A stretch of 64,000 nucleotides of DNA from Lachnospiraceae bacterium YSB2008 (GTDB lineage Bacteria; Bacillota; Clostridia; Lachnospirales; Lachnospiraceae). The stretch covers positions 124,001-188,000 of the forward strand of contig JHWR01000003.1 of assembly GCA_000687655.1 (NCBI GenBank), in the 5' to 3' direction. Position 1 is the first letter of the stretch. Every line of letters begins with the position of its first letter. Positions 37,330 to 44,162 of the stretch are shown here, piece after piece. The notes beneath the pieces were generated by a model. That model worked only from the letters and a program-made list of their open reading frames with translations, made no database searches and was not told where the DNA came from. Both the position numbers and the translations under genes were made by a program.

Positions 37330-39312
37330 TTACAGTGATTTAAATGTATTAACTACATTTTCAACTGTGAATCCGAAGTATGGGAAGAGCTCTCCGGCAG
37401 GAGCGGAAGCGCCGAAGGTTGTCATACCTATGGTCTTACCATTAAGTCCTGTGTAGCGGTCCCAACCGAAGGTTGAAAGTGCTTCAACGGAAACTCTCTT
37501 TGTAACATCCTTAGGAAGTACAGCGTTCTTATATTCATCCGGCTGATCCTCGAAGAGATCCATACATGGCATGCTGACTACTCTTACGTCTATACCGTCT
37601 GCAAGGAGGGCTTTTCTTGCATCTACTGCAAGTGATACCTCTGAACCTGAAGCAATGAGGATTCCGTCCGGAGTATCCTTGTCGCTGTCCTCAAGTATAT
37701 ATCCACCCTTAAGTGCATCAACAGATGAACCGTCGAGCTGTGGGAGATTCTGTCTTGAAAGTATGAGTGCTGAAGGAGCATCCTTACTGTTCTCTGCGAA
37801 ATACCATGCAGCTGCTGTTTCCATAGCATCAGCAGGTCTCCATGCATAGAAGTTTGGAAGTGCTCTGAAAGTAGCGAGCTGTTCAATCGGCTCATGTGTA
37901 GGACCGTCCTCACCTACTCCGATACTGTCATGTGTAAGAACATATGTAAGTGGAAGCTTCATAAGTGATGAAAGTCTTGCCATCTGCTTCAGGTAATCAC
38001 TGAATACGAAGAAGGTAGAAACAAATGGTCTGAGTCCGCCGTGAAGAGCTATACCATTTCCGATAGCTGCCATTGCAAGCTCTCTTACACCGAAATGAAG
38101 ATTTGAACCGGTTCTGTCTTCAGCTGAGAAATCGCCAAGTCCGTTCATATAGGTCTTTGTTGAAGGAGCAAGGTCAGCTGCACCACCGAACATATTCGGA
38201 AGCACCTTTGTCATGTAGTTGATAAGCTTTCCGGATACGCTTCTTGTAGCTTCAGGCTTATCTGCAACATGCCAGAAATCATCCATATCATAAAGAACCT
38301 TTGCTGAATCAGCATCGAAGTACTTATCCCAGAGCTCTTTCATTTCAGGATATTCTGCTGCATAAGCTTCGAAGAGCTTATTCCATTCATCCTCTGCCTT
38401 AGCCTTTTCATCAGCAATAGCTTTATAATTATCGTAGATATCCTGCGGAACTACGAAGCTTTCTTTTTCTTCCCAGCCAAGATTCTCACGAAGTGCTGCA
38501 ACATTTTCAACTCCGAGAGGCTCGCCGTGTGCTGCGGCTTTGCCTTCCTTGGCAGGACAGCCAGCACCGATCTTTGTCTTGATCTCGATGAGTGTAGGTC
38601 TTGTCTTATCTGACTTAGCTGCCTCGATGGCAACTCTTATTGCATTTATATCATTTCCGTCATCTACTCTGATGGTCTGGAAGCCGAATGCCTGGAAACG
38701 CTGCGATACATTTTCACGGAAAGCAATGTTTGTACCGCCTTCTATGGAAATGTCGTTTGAATCATAAAGTACTATGAGTTTTCCAAGGCCGAGGGTTCCT
38801 GCAAGAGAAAATGCCTCGTAGCTTGTACCTTCCATCATACATCCGTCGCCACCAAGTACAAATGTATAGTGATCAACTACCGGATAACCTTCTTTATTAA
38901 ATACTGAAGCGAGATGCTCCTCGGCCATAGCCATACCAACTGCCATAGCCATACCTGCTCCAAGAGGACCGGTAGTGGCATCAACACCTACAGTATGACC
39001 ATATTCAGGATGGCCCGGAGTGAGTGAACCAAACTGGCGGAAATTCTTGATGTCATCTATTGTAAGTCCGTAACCGAAAAGGTGAAGGAGTGAATAGAGC
39101 AGCATTGAACCATGTCCGCCTGAAAGGATGAAACGGTCACGGTTAAACCACTTAGGATCAGCCGGATTGAACTTCATACATTTGCTCCAGAGTGTATATG
39201 CCATAGGAGCTGCTCCGAGTGGAAGTCCCGGGTGACCGGAATTTGCTTTCTGAATTGCATCCGCGGAAAGTATGCGGATGGCGTCTATAGATCTTTCATC
39301 AATCGTTTTCAT
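37330..39312 (-). CDS. tkt: Transketolase
   Basis: 660 residues from ATG 39312 (GAGGAGG 9 nt upstream). Thiamine diphosphate enzyme with [17 protein letters not shown], the cofactor motif GGDGCMMEG to [10 protein letters not shown], and the second-half motif [19 protein letters not shown]. It moves two-carbon units in the pentose phosphate pathway and supplies pentoses for nucleotides, which also fits pentose fermentation in this family. Its start overlaps the DUF1858 gene by 14 nt, so the two are coupled. Confidence 0.96.
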
Positions 39313-39571
39313 CTGCCTGATCCTCCTCAACGTACTTTTTCTTCATATAATATTTAATATCGTCCAGAACCTGTTCAGGATCCATGCCGTGTACCATGCA
39401 TGCCTCAGATATTGATTCCATAAAAGCGGCAGGGCAGGTTACACATGACATACCTGAAGCCATAAGAATAGCGGCATTTCCGGGATCCATCTCAAGGAGC
39501 TGGTATATCGGAAGGCTGCCGTCTATAGCATCGATCTGTTCCGCTGTGTATGTTTTGGTGTTTTCTTCCAT
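39299..39571 (-). CDS. DUF1858-domain small redox-type protein
   Basis: 90 residues. Core domain of about 65 residues ([19 protein letters not shown], then [15 protein letters not shown]) carries the CxxC pair seen in DUF1858 and hybrid-cluster-associated proteins. A charged tail (EEDQADEND) follows. The CxxC suggests a redox or metal role. It is transcribed together with transketolase and overlaps it by 14 nt. No proven function for the family. Confidence 0.8.
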
Positions 39572-39941
39572 GATAGGAATGCGTCCTTTCTATATAAATG
39601 TATGTCGTTCGTATTATCTACGACAGCATACATATTAGCATAAATCAAAATGTATAACAATGGAATAATCTACTCAAAATGTGTGAGATTTTATTATCTT
39701 GCTCACAGAGTTCCTCCCAATAGGTCATGAACCATAATACATTCTATCTGCAAGCAGAGAAATTGTATATTGTATACAATCTCTGTACTTAAAAAAGTAC
39801 AAAAAGTGCTGTTTTTGGCGTTGACGTGTATACAAGAACAAACTATAATGGAACCATTAGAAGGGAAAATGTACGGAGAAAGTGGGTTTTTTGGCTTTCG
39901 ATACATTTCCCAAAAAGAATATCTTAAAGGAGGATTTTTTA
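39572..39941 (+). promoter_or_regulatory. pfl regulatory region: two inverted repeats, promoter, structured leader
   Basis: ATTGTATA-TTG-TATACAAT (39762-39780) is a perfect palindromic operator; TGTACTT-AAAA-AAGTACA (39784-39801) is a second. The promoter is TTGACG (39821-39826), 17-bp spacer, TATAAT (39844-39849); the spacer holds another TGTATACAA half-site. The leader (39863-39911) pairs GGGAAAATGTA with TACATTTCCC around an inner GAAAG/CTTTC, giving a hairpin that ends about 15 nt before the SD AAAGGAGG. The pattern fits a strong, redox- or oxygen-controlled promoter, but the regulator is unknown. Confidence 0.7.
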
Positions 39942-41990
39942 ATGGAAGCAACAGGTTGGAATGGCTTTGTAGGCGGTAAGTGGCAGAAAGAAGTTAATGT
40001 TCGTGACTTCATCCAGAAGAATTATACACCATATGAGGGTGATGACGAGTTCCTCGCTGAGCCTACACAGAACACAAAGGATCTTTGGCAGCAGGTTCTT
40101 GATCTTTCTAAGAAGGAAAGAGAAGCAGGTGGTGTTCTCGATATGGATACAAAGGTTGTATCTACACTTACATCACATGGTCCAGGATATCTTGATAAGT
40201 CCAAGGAGACAATCGTAGGATTCCAGACAGACAAGCCATTCAAGAGAGGTATGAACGTTTACGGTGGTATCCGTATGGCTGAGAAGGCTTGTAAGGATAA
40301 CGGTTATGAGGTTGATCCTGAGATAGTAGAATTCTTTACAATTCACAGAAAGACACACAATGCAGGTGTATTTGATGTTTATGATCCAGAGATCAGAAGA
40401 TGCCGTTCAAATCACATCATCACAGGACTTCCGGATGCTTACGGACGTGGACGTATCATCGGTGACTACAGAAGAGTAGCACTTTACGGTATTGATTACC
40501 TTGTAGCTGATAAGGAAGATCAGAAGGAATCATTCGGTACAGAGTACACAGATGACGTAATCAGAGGTAAGGAAGAGATCTCAGAGCAGATCAAGGCCCT
40601 TAAAGAGTTAAAGCAGATGGCTGCATCATATGGTTTTGATATTTCAAAGCCGGCACAGAATGTTCAGGAAGCAATCCAGTGGACATACTTTGGTTATCTT
40701 GGTGCTGTTAAGGAGCAGAACGGTGCTGCTATGTCACTTGGACGTACAGCTACATTCCTTGACTGCTACGCTGAGAGAGACCTTGCAAACGGTACATTTA
40801 CAGAAGAGCAGATTCAGGAGTTCGTTGATCACTTCATCATGAAGCTTCGTCTTGTTAAGTTCGCAAGAACACCTGAGTACAACCAGATATTCGCTGGTGA
40901 CCCAGTTTGGGTAACAGAGTCACTTGGTGGTATGGGTGTTGACGGACGTACACTTGTATCAAAGATGTCATTCAGATATCTTCATACACTTGACAACCTT
41001 GGTACAGCACCGGAGCCAAACCTTACAGTTCTTTGGTCAACAAGACTTCCTATCAACTGGAAGCAGTACTGTGCTAAGATGTCTATCAAGTCTTCATCAA
41101 TCCAGTATGAGAACGATGATATGATGAGAGTTGTTCATGGTGATGATTACGGTATCGCTTGCTGCGTATCTTCAATGAGAATCGGTAAAGAGATGCAGTT
41201 CTTCGGAGCAAGAGCAAACCTTGCTAAATGTCTTCTTTACGCTATCAACGGTGGTGTTGATGAGTGTACAGGAGTTCAGGTAGGACCTAAGTATAGACCA
41301 ATCACATCTGAGTACCTTGACTATGATGAGGTTATGGAAAAATATGAGGATATGATGGAATGGCTTGCTAAGGTTTATGTAAATGCTCTTAACATCATTC
41401 ACTACATGCATGATAAGTATGCATATGAGAGAATCCAGATGGCTCTTCATGACAGAGACGTAAAGAGATACTTTGCAACAGGTATCGCAGGACTTTCAGT
41501 TGTAGCTGACTCACTTTCAGCTATCAAGTATGCTAAAGTTAAATGTATAAGAAATGAACAGGGTGTTGTTGTAAGCTATGAGACAGAGGGTGACTTCCCT
41601 AAATATGGTAACAATGATGACAGAGTTGATGAGATTGCTGCAAATCTTGTTACAAAGTTCATGAAGATGATCAGATCACATCATGTATATAGAAATGGTT
41701 TCCCAACAATGTCAGTTCTTACTATCACATCAAACGTAACTTATGGTAAGAATACAGGTGATACTCCATGTGGTAGAAAGCATGGTCAGCCACTTGCTCC
41801 TGGTGCAAACCCAATGCATGGTAGAGATACTCACGGTGCTTATGCATCACTTTCATCAGTTGCTAAGCTTCCATTCGAGTATGCTCAGGATGGTATTTCA
41901 AATACATTCTCAATCATTCCTAATGCACTTGGTAAGGAAGATCAGGTATTCGCAGGCGACCTTGAAGTTGACCTTGGACTTGATAAATAG
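39942..41990 (+). CDS. pflB: Pyruvate formate-lyase core lacking the C-terminal glycyl-radical domain
   Basis: 682 residues from ATG 39942 (AAAGGAGG 9 nt upstream). It aligns along the normal [12 protein letters not shown] near the N-terminus, [12 protein letters not shown], and the active Cys407-Cys408 pair in YGIACCVSS. It ends [17 protein letters not shown] and a few residues more, where ordinary PFL continues for about 80 residues with the glycyl-radical loop RVSGYA. That domain is absent here and is found as a separate gene at 42339. PFL converts pyruvate and CoA to acetyl-CoA and formate. Codon use is strongly biased, as in very highly expressed genes. No activase gene is in the window. 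Confidence 0.93.
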
Positions 41991-42081
41991 GGCAGGATTG
42001 CGAAGTAAATCGAGGAATCATACCGTTAAATATCAAAAGTATCACATATACCACATGTGAGATTATGATAGAGGTATAAAT

Positions 42082-42303
42082 ATGAGTGATAAGTTAAATG
42101 ACGTTAATGACATAGTTTCTATGCTTGATAATATGGTAGAGAACGGGACCGGACACATCAATGTGTCCGTGGACCCGGAAGCCGAAGCAGGCAAAACGGT
42201 TGAAACTATGGGCTGTATAGACTGTGCGAAGGGTGATCTTGCATGTTCAGTGCCTACACTTATGGAAGGCATGGATGACGCTTTTGCAGATCAGAATAAG
42301 TAG
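42082..42303 (+). CDS. Small Cys-containing paralogue of the PFL radical domain N-terminus
   Basis: 73 residues. The first 30 residues ([20 protein letters not shown]) match the first part of the separate PFL radical domain ([20 protein letters not shown]). After that the sequence differs: there is no RVSGYA loop, and instead [15 protein letters not shown] gives Cys45, Cys48 and Cys55. It lies between the PFL core and the radical-domain gene, with AGAGG 7 nt before its ATG. It may occupy the same docking surface, perhaps as a cap, assembly factor, redox switch or metal-binding partner. All of these are inference; no described family was recognised. Confidence 0.75.
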
Positions 42304-42338
42304 TGCAGGTCTTAATAAATAAAGGAGGAGATAAAGAA

Positions 42339-42578
42339 ATGGCTAGTAAAGCACAGGTAGATAACTTAGTAGATATGTTAGATGGTTATGTTGACAAGGG
42401 TGGTCATCACCTTAACGTTAACGTGTACAACAGAGAGACTCTTATAGATGCTCAGAAGCATCCAGAGAATTATCCACAGCTCACAATCCGTGTATCAGGA
42501 TATGCTGTTAACTTCATCAAGTTAACAAAGGAGCAGCAGGATGACGTTATCTCACGTACATTCCATGAGTCACTCTAA
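42339..42578 (+). CDS. Stand-alone PFL glycyl-radical domain (GrcA-like)
   Basis: 79 residues from ATG 42339, with AAAGGAGGAG upstream; an earlier GTG at 42303 has no SD. The whole protein is the PFL C-terminal domain: [20 protein letters not shown], then [16 protein letters not shown] with the radical glycine at Gly54, then [18 protein letters not shown] as at the end of PFL. The E. coli GrcA (YfiD) and phage T4 homologues are spare radical domains that rescue an oxygen-cleaved full PFL. Here the neighbouring PFL has no such domain of its own, so this protein is probably an obligatory subunit (682 + 79 = 761 residues). Confidence 0.92.
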
Positions 42579-42613
42579 GAAAATCTACCATTAATTAAAT
42601 ATGGTGATAAATG

Positions 42614-42640
42614 GCGCGGAGCATATGCTCCGCGCTTTTG
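42614..42640 (+). terminator. Terminator of the pfl operon
   Basis: GCGCGGAGCAT and ATGCTCCGCGC form a perfect 22-base palindromic stem, followed by TTTT. Confidence 0.9.
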
Positions 42641-42710
42641 TTATATAACAGGAGACTGTGTATCCTATTATAAATAGTCAATTGTATCATATTTGTGATA
42701 TGATTATGCT

Positions 42711-44162
42711 ATGCTTAAAGATATCTTTTTAAAACTGAATAAGAAGCTGCCGTCTGATGTTCTTGATTATGACAGTACTTCAAAAATACTGTCATTCTAC
42801 GGGAATAATCTTCATGCTACTTTCACTAAATCAAATAATAATGTGCGGATGTCCATCCGTCGAAATGGAAAACAGTACGATTATATCCTTAAGAACGAGA
42901 AGGAAGTCTATTACGTTATAAAAAGGCTATATAAAGGAAAAATCAGCTTTGACGAGACTGACAGTAGAAGCATCTCTGTAAAAGGGTTGCTGTGGTACAG
43001 GTTAAACTATAAGCCTCTTGCCACGAAGATATTCATGATAGTTCTTGGCCTGGCTATAACTATATCCTCTTCGTTTATGGTTCTTGCCGGAATCTTTACT
43101 TTTTCTGATGGCTACCGCAAAATGGGATATTATGATATTGGACTTTTTATCATGCTTTTCTTTTTCATTGCGGCCGGAATAGCTCTTATAATCGGGGCAT
43201 TCGGAAGATATGTATATGAAGGCCTGCATTTTATAAGTCTCTTTCTGAGCGGATTTTCAATCTGTATGTTTTTTTATGGAATAGAAGACTTGATCAGTGA
43301 TAAAGATTATGGCGTACGGAATCTCATTTCTACTATAGTACTATTTGGTTTCATGCTTCTTGCCGGAATACTCTTCATGATCATGAGTCTTCTGAAAAAG
43401 AAAAGTGACAGTGTTGTTATCCGCAGAACTCCGGTTCTGCCGCCTGACGAAAAACTTAGTATTCTTTTTGATAACATATATGAGAACAATAAGGTCCAGA
43501 CACTCAGTCTCAATCTGACAGGGGATATCCCCCAATACAGTGGGAGCCGCATAGGAGGAAATCCTTATACTGATGGAACTATAGATACAAACGAGGTATC
43601 GGGCATGACCTTCCTCGGACAGATCAACCTTGCCCAGATTGAAACTCCATCAAAACTTCCTTCAAATGGATTGCTCCAGTTTTTCTTTGTGGAGGAAGGA
43701 GATTATGAGCTGGAGGTCGAGACTCTATACTACCCTCATATAGATGAGCAAAGGGATGAATTCTGTAATAACAGCAAGAGCCTTCAGGTTACGTCCGAGA
43801 TGTGGCCGGAAATCAAGGACACAGATGTAAGCGATATATATGCAGTTGCAGCAGAGCTCGGAATACCTCTCGAAGCAGACCTCGAGTTTCAGGACTTCTA
43901 TGATCAGGATGCATTCCCGAAACCAAAGGGAGATTACTTACTCGGTCCAATCCGTAATACCGCACCTGAAACACTTAATACGGAGGCAGATTCATATAGT
44001 ATTCCGCTTTTCTCAATTTCTTCAGATTCACCGATAATCACACACCTCTGCAGTGATAACAGCGTTTATCTGGACGGTTTACAGGTATTTATAAGCGATG
44101 AGTGCCTTCGCGCTAATGATTTCAGCGATGTATATACAGTTATGAATTTCTATTATTGGTAA
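42711..44162 (+). CDS. Membrane protein with C-terminal DUF1963-like domain
   Basis: 483 residues. A small soluble N-terminal domain (1-95), then four or five TM helices (about 103-230), then a cytoplasmic or outer soluble region (about 245-483). The C-terminal segment shows GMTFLGQINLAQI and GLLQFFFVEEGDYEL, which recall DUF1963 (YwqG-like) proteins. No SD is visible before the ATG at 42711, so the start is uncertain. Single gene between two terminators. Function unknown. Confidence 0.65.
   Translation: MLKDIFLKLNKKLPSDVLDYDSTSKILSFYGNNLHATFTKSNNNVRMSIRRNGKQYDYILKNEKEVYYVIKRLYKGKISFDETDSRSISVKGLLWYRLNYKPLATKIFMIVLGLAITISSSFMVLAGIFTFSDGYRKMGYYDIGLFIMLFFFIAAGIALIIGAFGRYVYEGLHFISLFLSGFSICMFFYGIEDLISDKDYGVRNLISTIVLFGFMLLAGILFMIMSLLKKKSDSVVIRRTPVLPPDEKLSILFDNIYENNKVQTLSLNLTGDIPQYSGSRIGGNPYTDGTIDTNEVSGMTFLGQINLAQIETPSKLPSNGLLQFFFVEEGDYELEVETLYYPHIDEQRDEFCNNSKSLQVTSEMWPEIKDTDVSDIYAVAAELGIPLEADLEFQDFYDQDAFPKPKGDYLLGPIRNTAPETLNTEADSYSIPLFSISSDSPIITHLCSDNSVYLDGLQVFISDECLRANDFSDVYTVMNFYYW

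Follow-up and report, generated by a model that had tools for sequence, protein, structure and literature searches.

What becomes of pyruvate formate-lyase (PFL) when the glycine that carries its radical and the cysteines that receive it are encoded by different genes? PFL is a textbook case of a one-chain enzyme that is destroyed by oxygen at a single glycine. The DNA analysed here, a stretch of 64,000 nucleotides of Lachnospiraceae bacterium YSB2008 (assembly GCA_000687655.1, contig JHWR01000003.1; hereafter the window), contains a PFL gene that stops at the point where the radical domain normally begins, and that domain is encoded by a small gene of its own further downstream. The source is a gut-type anaerobic bacterium. 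A sequence-only reading of this locus had proposed a naturally split enzyme, in which the damaged part could be replaced without rebuilding the whole, and knew of no description of such a PFL. We propose, with a probability of about three in four, that the locus encodes a PFL obligately made of two subunits, the radical one being exchangeable, together with a third, cysteine-bearing element.

Anatomy of the split locus

The core protein matches the PFL model TIGR01255 with 1101.6 bits (cut-off 994.2) over positions 2-666 of 744 and, because the match stops at 666, terminates short of the radical loop; its stop codon is a TAG (41988-41990). The Cys407-Cys408 pair is invariant among 30 aligned cores, and the mean column identity of 30 close cores reaches 87%. 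The glycyl-radical loop is absent from this polypeptide and is encoded by a separate gene, the product of which matches positions 664-744 of TIGR01255, positions 50-106 of PF01228 and, with 166.5 bits (cut-off 158), the NCBIfam model NF038360 named 'GrcA3'. In alignments with E. coli PFL (1h16), residues 8-682 are accounted for by the core and residues 682-758 by the small protein; the two are therefore complementary and jointly make up one complete PFL. These matches bear out the sequence-only reading in its description of a PFL frame that carries the cysteine pair and ends at the radical-domain junction, and of a radical domain (RVSGYA, Gly54) forming its own gene behind a strong Shine-Dalgarno sequence. 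Its sum of 682 + 79 = 761 residues is correct, and so is its placing of the radical and the cysteines on different proteins, since the loop is found only on the 79-residue protein and the cysteine pair on the core.

The features of the locus are collected in Table 1. The starts of the core gene (39942) and of the radical gene (42339) are in frame with each other. Promoter-like sites numbered 11 in the region, with 9.5 expected from shuffled sequences, which lends weak support to the site listed; the one terminator-like hairpin compares with 1.5 expected. No Rfam family matched within 39571-42720 at the gathering threshold. A frame at 41743-42060, which overlaps the end of the core gene and has a sub-threshold Pfam match only, was treated as a chance open reading frame. 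The structure predicted for the core by AlphaFold had a pLDDT of 53, the input alignment being too uniform, and a Foldseek search with this low-confidence model returned E. coli PFL as the top match (TM about 0.4).

Table 1. Coordinates of the features of the split PFL locus, numbered from the first letter of the window
Feature	Position	Strand	Basis
Sigma-70-type promoter-like site, TTGACG-17 nt-TATAAT, upstream of the core gene	39821..39849	+	Consensus scan, 11/12 positions
PFL catalytic core gene, 682 aa, Cys407-Cys408, without radical loop	39942..41990	+	TIGR01255 profile, E. coli PFL alignment
Ribosome-binding-like AGAGGT before the middle gene	42070..42075	+	By eye
Middle gene, 73 aa; N-terminal half like the beginning of the radical subunit, followed by a cysteine tail	42082..42303	+	Conservation, profile match, dN/dS
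Shine-Dalgarno AAGGAGG before the ATG of the radical subunit	42322..42328	+	By eye
Separate glycyl-radical subunit (GrcA3), 79 aa, RVSGYA with Gly54	42339..42578	+	PF01228, TIGR01255 and NF038360 matches
Terminator-like hairpin with T-rich tail, downstream of the three genes	42613..42636	+	Scan

PFL, activase and pyruvate routes in the genome

The assembly is listed as 100% complete, and its single match to the PFL profile PF02901 is the window core; the search with this profile found no second PFL. The intact copy whose presence elsewhere in the genome would have spoken against the sequence-only reading was thus not found, and 87 of 89 split genomes of the same family likewise have none over the cut-off. 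Besides the small subunit, only one other protein of the genome has a radical domain, and this we take, judging by its sequence, to be a class III ribonucleotide reductase. One activase exceeds the TIGR02493 cut-off (280.8 bits against 231.75) and is encoded 1.9 kb past the end of the window (C3:189885-190580). A genome search for pyruvate-ferredoxin oxidoreductase (TIGR02176) gave three weak pieces, and because none was over the cut-off, pyruvate may be converted to acetyl-CoA mainly by PFL in this bacterium.

Distribution of the split

Comparison with relatives, which the sequence-only reading had called for, gave a uniform picture: all of the best 80 of 585 matching loci in named genomes (80/80) are split at the same junction. 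The radical gene lies 103-982 bases downstream of the core in 78 of these 80, and the contigs of the remaining two end 375 and 412 bases past the core. Most of the 80 titles name Lachnospiraceae; Eubacterium, Clostridium, Acetatifactor, Parablautia, Blautia, Robinsoniella and unplaced names also occur. The nearest named isolate among the best 80 of 585 is Eubacterium ruminantium ATCC 17233 (94%), and it too is split. E. ruminantium forms formate. According to the available part of PMC4478896, PFL is present in 61 of 62 butyrivibrio genomes, and formate is among the products observed.

An evenly drawn sample of 250 genomes of the family contained 178 with a PFL over the cut-off. Among the matches listed, a PFL reaching the C-terminus was counted by hand in 89 genomes, and a split core was found in 55 (the window's own genome included), two of which also belonged to the full-length set. 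A set of 89 genomes, composed of 54 with split cores and 35 carriers of the middle gene described below, was searched again; 88 proved to be split, and the remaining one (G006, 67% complete) gave no PFL match. The split genomes of the family sample consequently number 89, namely the window's own and these 88, and a full-length PFL over the cut-off accompanies the split one in only two of them (G085, G132). About 7 of the 178 genomes fall outside this count and could hold exceptions. Many split genomes carry other, more distant glycyl-radical enzymes, which score below the PFL cut-off. In a sample of 391 genomes of the class, 21 have a radical gene that exceeds the GrcA3 cut-off, always as a short frame (78-106 aa); five of the 21 genomes are in the window's family, its own included, and one is in another family of the same order. 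The split PFL is also present in other families of the class. On the sequence evidence, the split is real, widespread and obligate at the gene level.

A third, cysteine-bearing element

The sequence-only reading left out the gene at 42082-42303, as well as the core cysteine tails, the re-fused forms, the breadth of the split and the NCBI GrcA3 model. Of the 80 named loci that match best, 79 have a middle open reading frame, 75 of them recognised by its motif and 4 by eye; it is missing at the remaining one (L057). A comparison of the middle-protein and radical-subunit profiles with hhalign gave a probability of 91.7% and an E-value of 7.9e-7 over 31 columns, and the middle-gene profile also matches the starts of GrcA3 proteins in many genomes with E-values of about 1e-4. 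The likeness ends where the RVSGYA radical loop would stand, which is replaced by a cysteine tail in all 40 aligned middle proteins. Most of the 40 have a CxxC motif and a third cysteine; cysteines 2 and 3 alone are invariant and the spacing varies. One middle protein (L051) is devoid of the first cysteine, and in two genomes (G012, G026) the frame terminates after the first CxxC. The middle gene is under purifying selection, with dN/dS of 0.02-0.15 in 6 of 12 pairs formed with the window, synonymous sites being saturated in the other 6. No family of Pfam, NCBIfam or PHROG was over the cut-off for the middle protein, no relatives were found in the viral contigs or plasmids searched, and its profile had no meaningful match in the PDB. 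Since the protein predicted alone (AlphaFold) adopts no confident fold (pLDDT 56), its proposed docking rests on the 31 aligned columns.

Split genomes that do not have the middle gene possess a longer core, which ends in a similar cysteine motif; examples are DCSNGACSTPTLFEGLDNQ in a locus outside the family (L193) and GCGDMACKVPTLHKGIDD in L132. The shorter type of core tail forms the DCACCEP group, and core-borne tails range down to CC. In G092 the middle-gene profile matches the tail of the core itself (positions 50-65 of 67; E 3.8e-4), which supports a motif common to core tail and middle gene. In the family sample, the 89 split genomes divide into 63 with the middle gene and 26 with the core tail, with none having both and none having neither; 88 of the 89 loci were read, and G132 is counted from a profile match beside its split core only. 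Every split PFL in the family sample examined thus has either the middle protein or a core cysteine tail. Because 34 of the 89 genomes were chosen for having the middle gene, the fair ratio of the two arrangements is 29:26, as counted in the 55 chosen by PFL score alone (29 with the middle gene, 26 with the core tail and none with neither). Eighteen further split genomes of the class sample, 17 outside the family and one inside it (G489), comprised 5 with the middle gene, 9 with the core tail and 4 with neither (G401, which is 82% complete, G602, G501 and G439), so that the cysteine element is not universal. The middle gene can move and yet stays in the genome: it lies on another contig in G002 and downstream of the radical gene in G398. 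It was found, among the matches listed, in none of the 87 family genomes with intact PFL only. On a tree of 158 cores, made by a quick method and containing one genome twice (G012, as L134 and L236), there are 11 changes from one arrangement to the other, at least 5 of them on well-supported branches.

Evolutionary history and probable re-fusion

A tree of 68 rows places 47 of 48 split cores in one clade of 54 rows (support 99), within which 7 intact PFLs are nested; the split core of G439 (L207) lies outside this main clade. The grouping of the 47 main split rows as a single clade of their own, picked for the AU test after a first tree had been inspected, is rejected (p-AU 0.004). A signature of the radical domain, DAQ, is present in 105 of 106 split subunits, in 7 of the 7 nested intact PFLs and in 0 of 42 other intact PFLs; this count omits five split and two intact loci with no motif match as well as the duplicate L236, and includes as split the radical genes of L258 and L260, which lie on short stretches. 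The nested intact PFLs accordingly look like re-fusions. One of them (L024) retains DVTCGCEEVTCAVD, an insert rich in cysteine that lies precisely at the former junction. The other six of the seven have no cysteine insert in the protein, and a search of five of their genomes found no middle gene; the presence of the cysteine element is thereby linked to the split state. The simplest reading of these trees and signatures is one main split that was followed by later re-fusions, with at least one independent split (G439).

Proposed mechanism and alternative explanations

It is highly probable that the small protein docks into the core, gains a radical on Gly54, passes it to the cysteine pair and is replaced alone after exposure to oxygen. 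The helix and strand at its start, which correspond to E. coli PFL from residue 682 onward, would dock into the open core, and the activase would then install the radical on Gly54 of the docked protein. From there the radical would be handed to the cysteine pair of the core, as it is in ordinary PFL. Cleavage by oxygen at Gly54 would cost the cell the 79-residue subunit only, the place of which a fresh copy would take.

The role of the middle protein is a more tentative matter. We hypothesise, at odds below even, that it occupies the slot of the radical subunit when this is empty. As a placeholder it would shield the open active site during that time, and it might in addition be a thiol switch, admitting the radical subunit under reducing conditions only. 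Lineages that have no middle protein would have a similar tail on the core itself instead. The fuller idea of a dedicated redox gate, in which the slot is filled by a cysteine-bearing protein that mimics the radical subunit, or by a core tail, which shields the open active site from oxygen and from thiol chemistry and makes way for the true radical subunit only once its cysteines are reduced, is speculative, and we regard it as rather unlikely. If it were true, changes in oxygen would set when the enzyme is put together and taken apart around its radical, and the gate would become superfluous in lineages in which the two halves are re-fused.

An alternative of comparable weight, doubtful and yet worth retaining, is that the middle protein or core tail is a recognition element, which recruits the radical subunit or the activase and replaces residues 696-733 of E. 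coli PFL. In the available part of PMC8683613, the damaged core requires these residues to bind YfiD and to be activated, they are proposed as a recognition element, and an E. coli core cut after residue 695 showed undetectable YfiD binding and 32-fold less activation. From these losses we infer that an efficient split core needs adaptations; the defect offers a possible reason for the cysteine element, as the split cores do not have residues 696-733 either. The association of the element with the split state, in that 6 of the 7 re-fused PFLs are without it and the five of their genomes that were searched are without the middle gene, is also consistent with recruitment. However, because the middle protein resembles the subunit's docking half, it would be expected to compete with the radical subunit and not to help it, and recognition alone leaves the conserved cysteines unexplained.

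A less probable explanation is that the middle protein is a third subunit that stays in place permanently, its cysteines binding a metal or an iron-sulphur cluster. Such ligands are found in the small subunits of certain other glycyl-radical enzymes, and the CxxC with a third cysteine, present in most aligned members, would suit such a role. Against it stand the invariance of the second and third cysteines alone (n=40), the variable spacing, the core tails that shrink to CC, and the want of a known family over the cut-off in Pfam or NCBIfam. The conserved cysteines, taken together with the likeness to the docking half, favour a redox-sensitive placeholder, as far as the sequences can be read, over a recruiter or a metal-binding subunit.

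The NCBI name of the small protein, 'autonomous glycyl radical cofactor', would suit a GrcA3 that is merely a spare part beside a relic core, with another enzyme carrying the pyruvate load; this is very improbable. The core as a relic is rejected, since the genome holds no other PFL and the core is strongly conserved (87% mean column identity in 30 close cores), and the spare part is rejected, since a full-length PFL is absent here and in 87 of the 89 split genomes; the missing TIGR02176 match over the cut-off and the uniform split of the best 80 of 585 named loci also speak against this explanation. An assembly or sequencing error or a recent nonsense mutation, which the shared frame of core and radical gene might suggest and of which the sequence-only reading had named assembly errors as a possible refutation, has a negligible chance and is rejected, because the identical break recurs in the best 80 of 585 named loci, in many assemblies and in an isolate, and because a different gene under purifying selection separates the two pieces.

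Novelty and significance

The phrase 'split pyruvate formate-lyase' and the word GrcA3 had no match in open-access full text, and the open-access literature on related topics, among the matches listed, consisted of the E. coli spare-part work and unrelated papers, none on a split PFL. The available parts of PMC8683613, PMC12288474, PMC12338860, PMC11574389 and PMC4478896 do not mention it. The impression of the sequence-only reading that no split PFL has been described agrees with the open-access texts searched; it fits less well with the Protein Data Bank, in which two entries, 38la and 38lb, look like radical-less PFL cores. For that reason the split itself is not claimed as new, and it is probably already known to someone. 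What has left no trace in the open-access literature searched is the third element, with the two forms that replace each other.

A large group of anaerobes appears to have turned the breakable part of the enzyme into a separate and cheap subunit, and a companion cysteine element has been retained in nearly all the cases examined. The arrangement would offer a natural system in which to study the installation of a glycyl radical across a protein-protein interface, and a handle on how anaerobes survive brief exposure to oxygen and on why a similarly cut E. coli core fails to bind its spare part. A further suggestion is that what the databases list in these bacteria as 'truncated' PFL and as 'autonomous cofactor' belongs together as the two subunits of a single enzyme. 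As middle gene and core tail have replaced each other repeatedly, a comparison of the two may help in the study of a protein without an assigned family.

Comparison with known systems

A close counterpart is E. coli PflB (TIGR01255), to which the core aligns from residue 8 to 682 with its cysteine pair and the radical subunit from 682 to 758. In contrast to PflB, the enzyme described here consists of two polypeptides, with a new core tail, a third cysteine-bearing gene and no intact copy in the genome. GrcA/YfiD (TIGR04365) is likewise a stand-alone radical domain with RVSGYA. The available part of PMC8683613 describes a YfiD that rescues oxygen-cleaved full-length PFL and the residues 61-127 of which match PFL 693-759, behind a disordered N-terminus of 60 amino acids. 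The small protein differs from it in that it starts at PFL residue 682, without the long N-terminus and without a full-length PFL to rescue, and it scores 97.7 bits against TIGR04365, under the cut-off of 170, over positions 66-126 only. The name and the type ('exception') of the model that it does pass, NF038360 (rad_fix_GrcA3), do not mention a subunit of a split PFL.

Of the solved structures, 38lb and 38la ('Formate acetyltransferase'), both recent entries, are the best-matching chains for the core (1113.1 and 1107.1 bits; E. coli PFL 985.1), and neither was among the 50 Foldseek matches listed for a structure copy up to 8 April 2026. The chain of 38la stops right past the junction and that of 38lb extends 43 residues beyond the aligned part; neither has a radical-domain match, nor was a chain of a radical subunit found alongside. 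Among 398 genomes of the phylum, the 38la fragment is best matched by frames of intact length, and 38la may for that reason be an engineered truncation. The best 13 matches to the 38lb fragment among 291 genomes of the class are all split cores, which makes it very likely that 38lb is a natural split core. The natural split point lies about 13 residues before the experimental truncation of E. coli PFL (1-695) reported in the available part of PMC8683613.

Radical subunits and their possible exchange in split PFL systems

Among the other 88 split genomes, a hand count gives at least 15 with an additional stand-alone radical gene located at another place (G080, G144, G221, G247, G112, G041, G042, G064, G184, G241, G097, G235, G031, G208 and G190), and a radical subunit and a true spare part may therefore both occur in one split genome. 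The middle gene, which encodes the cysteine-tailed element, is shortened in L236 (G012) and L235 (G026), where the ORF terminates after the first CxxC and the stop falls within the profile match. The full-length PFL of L024 / L237 (genome G096) is placed within the split clade, the tree group that holds most split cores; it carries an insert rich in cysteines precisely where the former junction lay, ends in CCM at its C-terminus, and looks like a re-fusion.

Split-type genes in viral-classed contigs

IMG/VR entries classed as viral (L297-L310, L312) encode split-type radical subunits as short separate genes, with the DAQ signature and mostly of ~77-79 aa, while the frames of the other viral entries (L319-L370) are mostly longer, about 120-176 aa. 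In L300, from a contig of 332,864 bp, the radical subunit gene is flanked by nrdD-like and nrdG-like genes, and in L298 exonuclease, helicase and thymidylate synthase genes match phage families. A second kind of split PFL, devoid of the cysteine tail, is present in L302, whose core ends in SITPASLGKDED with the radical gene immediately next, and in L303 and L312, where the order is reversed, radical gene first, and the core is spread over two frames. The source contigs of these three loci may be misclassified bacterial DNA.

Upstream neighbours and structural counterparts

The gene of the 90-aa protein in the table lies upstream of the core gene in divergent orientation.

Neighbours of the core gene in the window, and the L302 locus
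Feature	Position	Strand	Remark
Small protein, 90 aa, CxxC motif (SCVTCPAAF)	window 39299-39571	-	named by eye
Transketolase-like gene	window 37330-39330	-	adjoins the 90-aa protein gene; named by eye
Split PFL without cysteine tail	L302:1916-4225		viral-classed contig

Among known structures, the chains of PDB 38la and 38lb, named 'Formate acetyltransferase', look like PFL cores without the radical domain.
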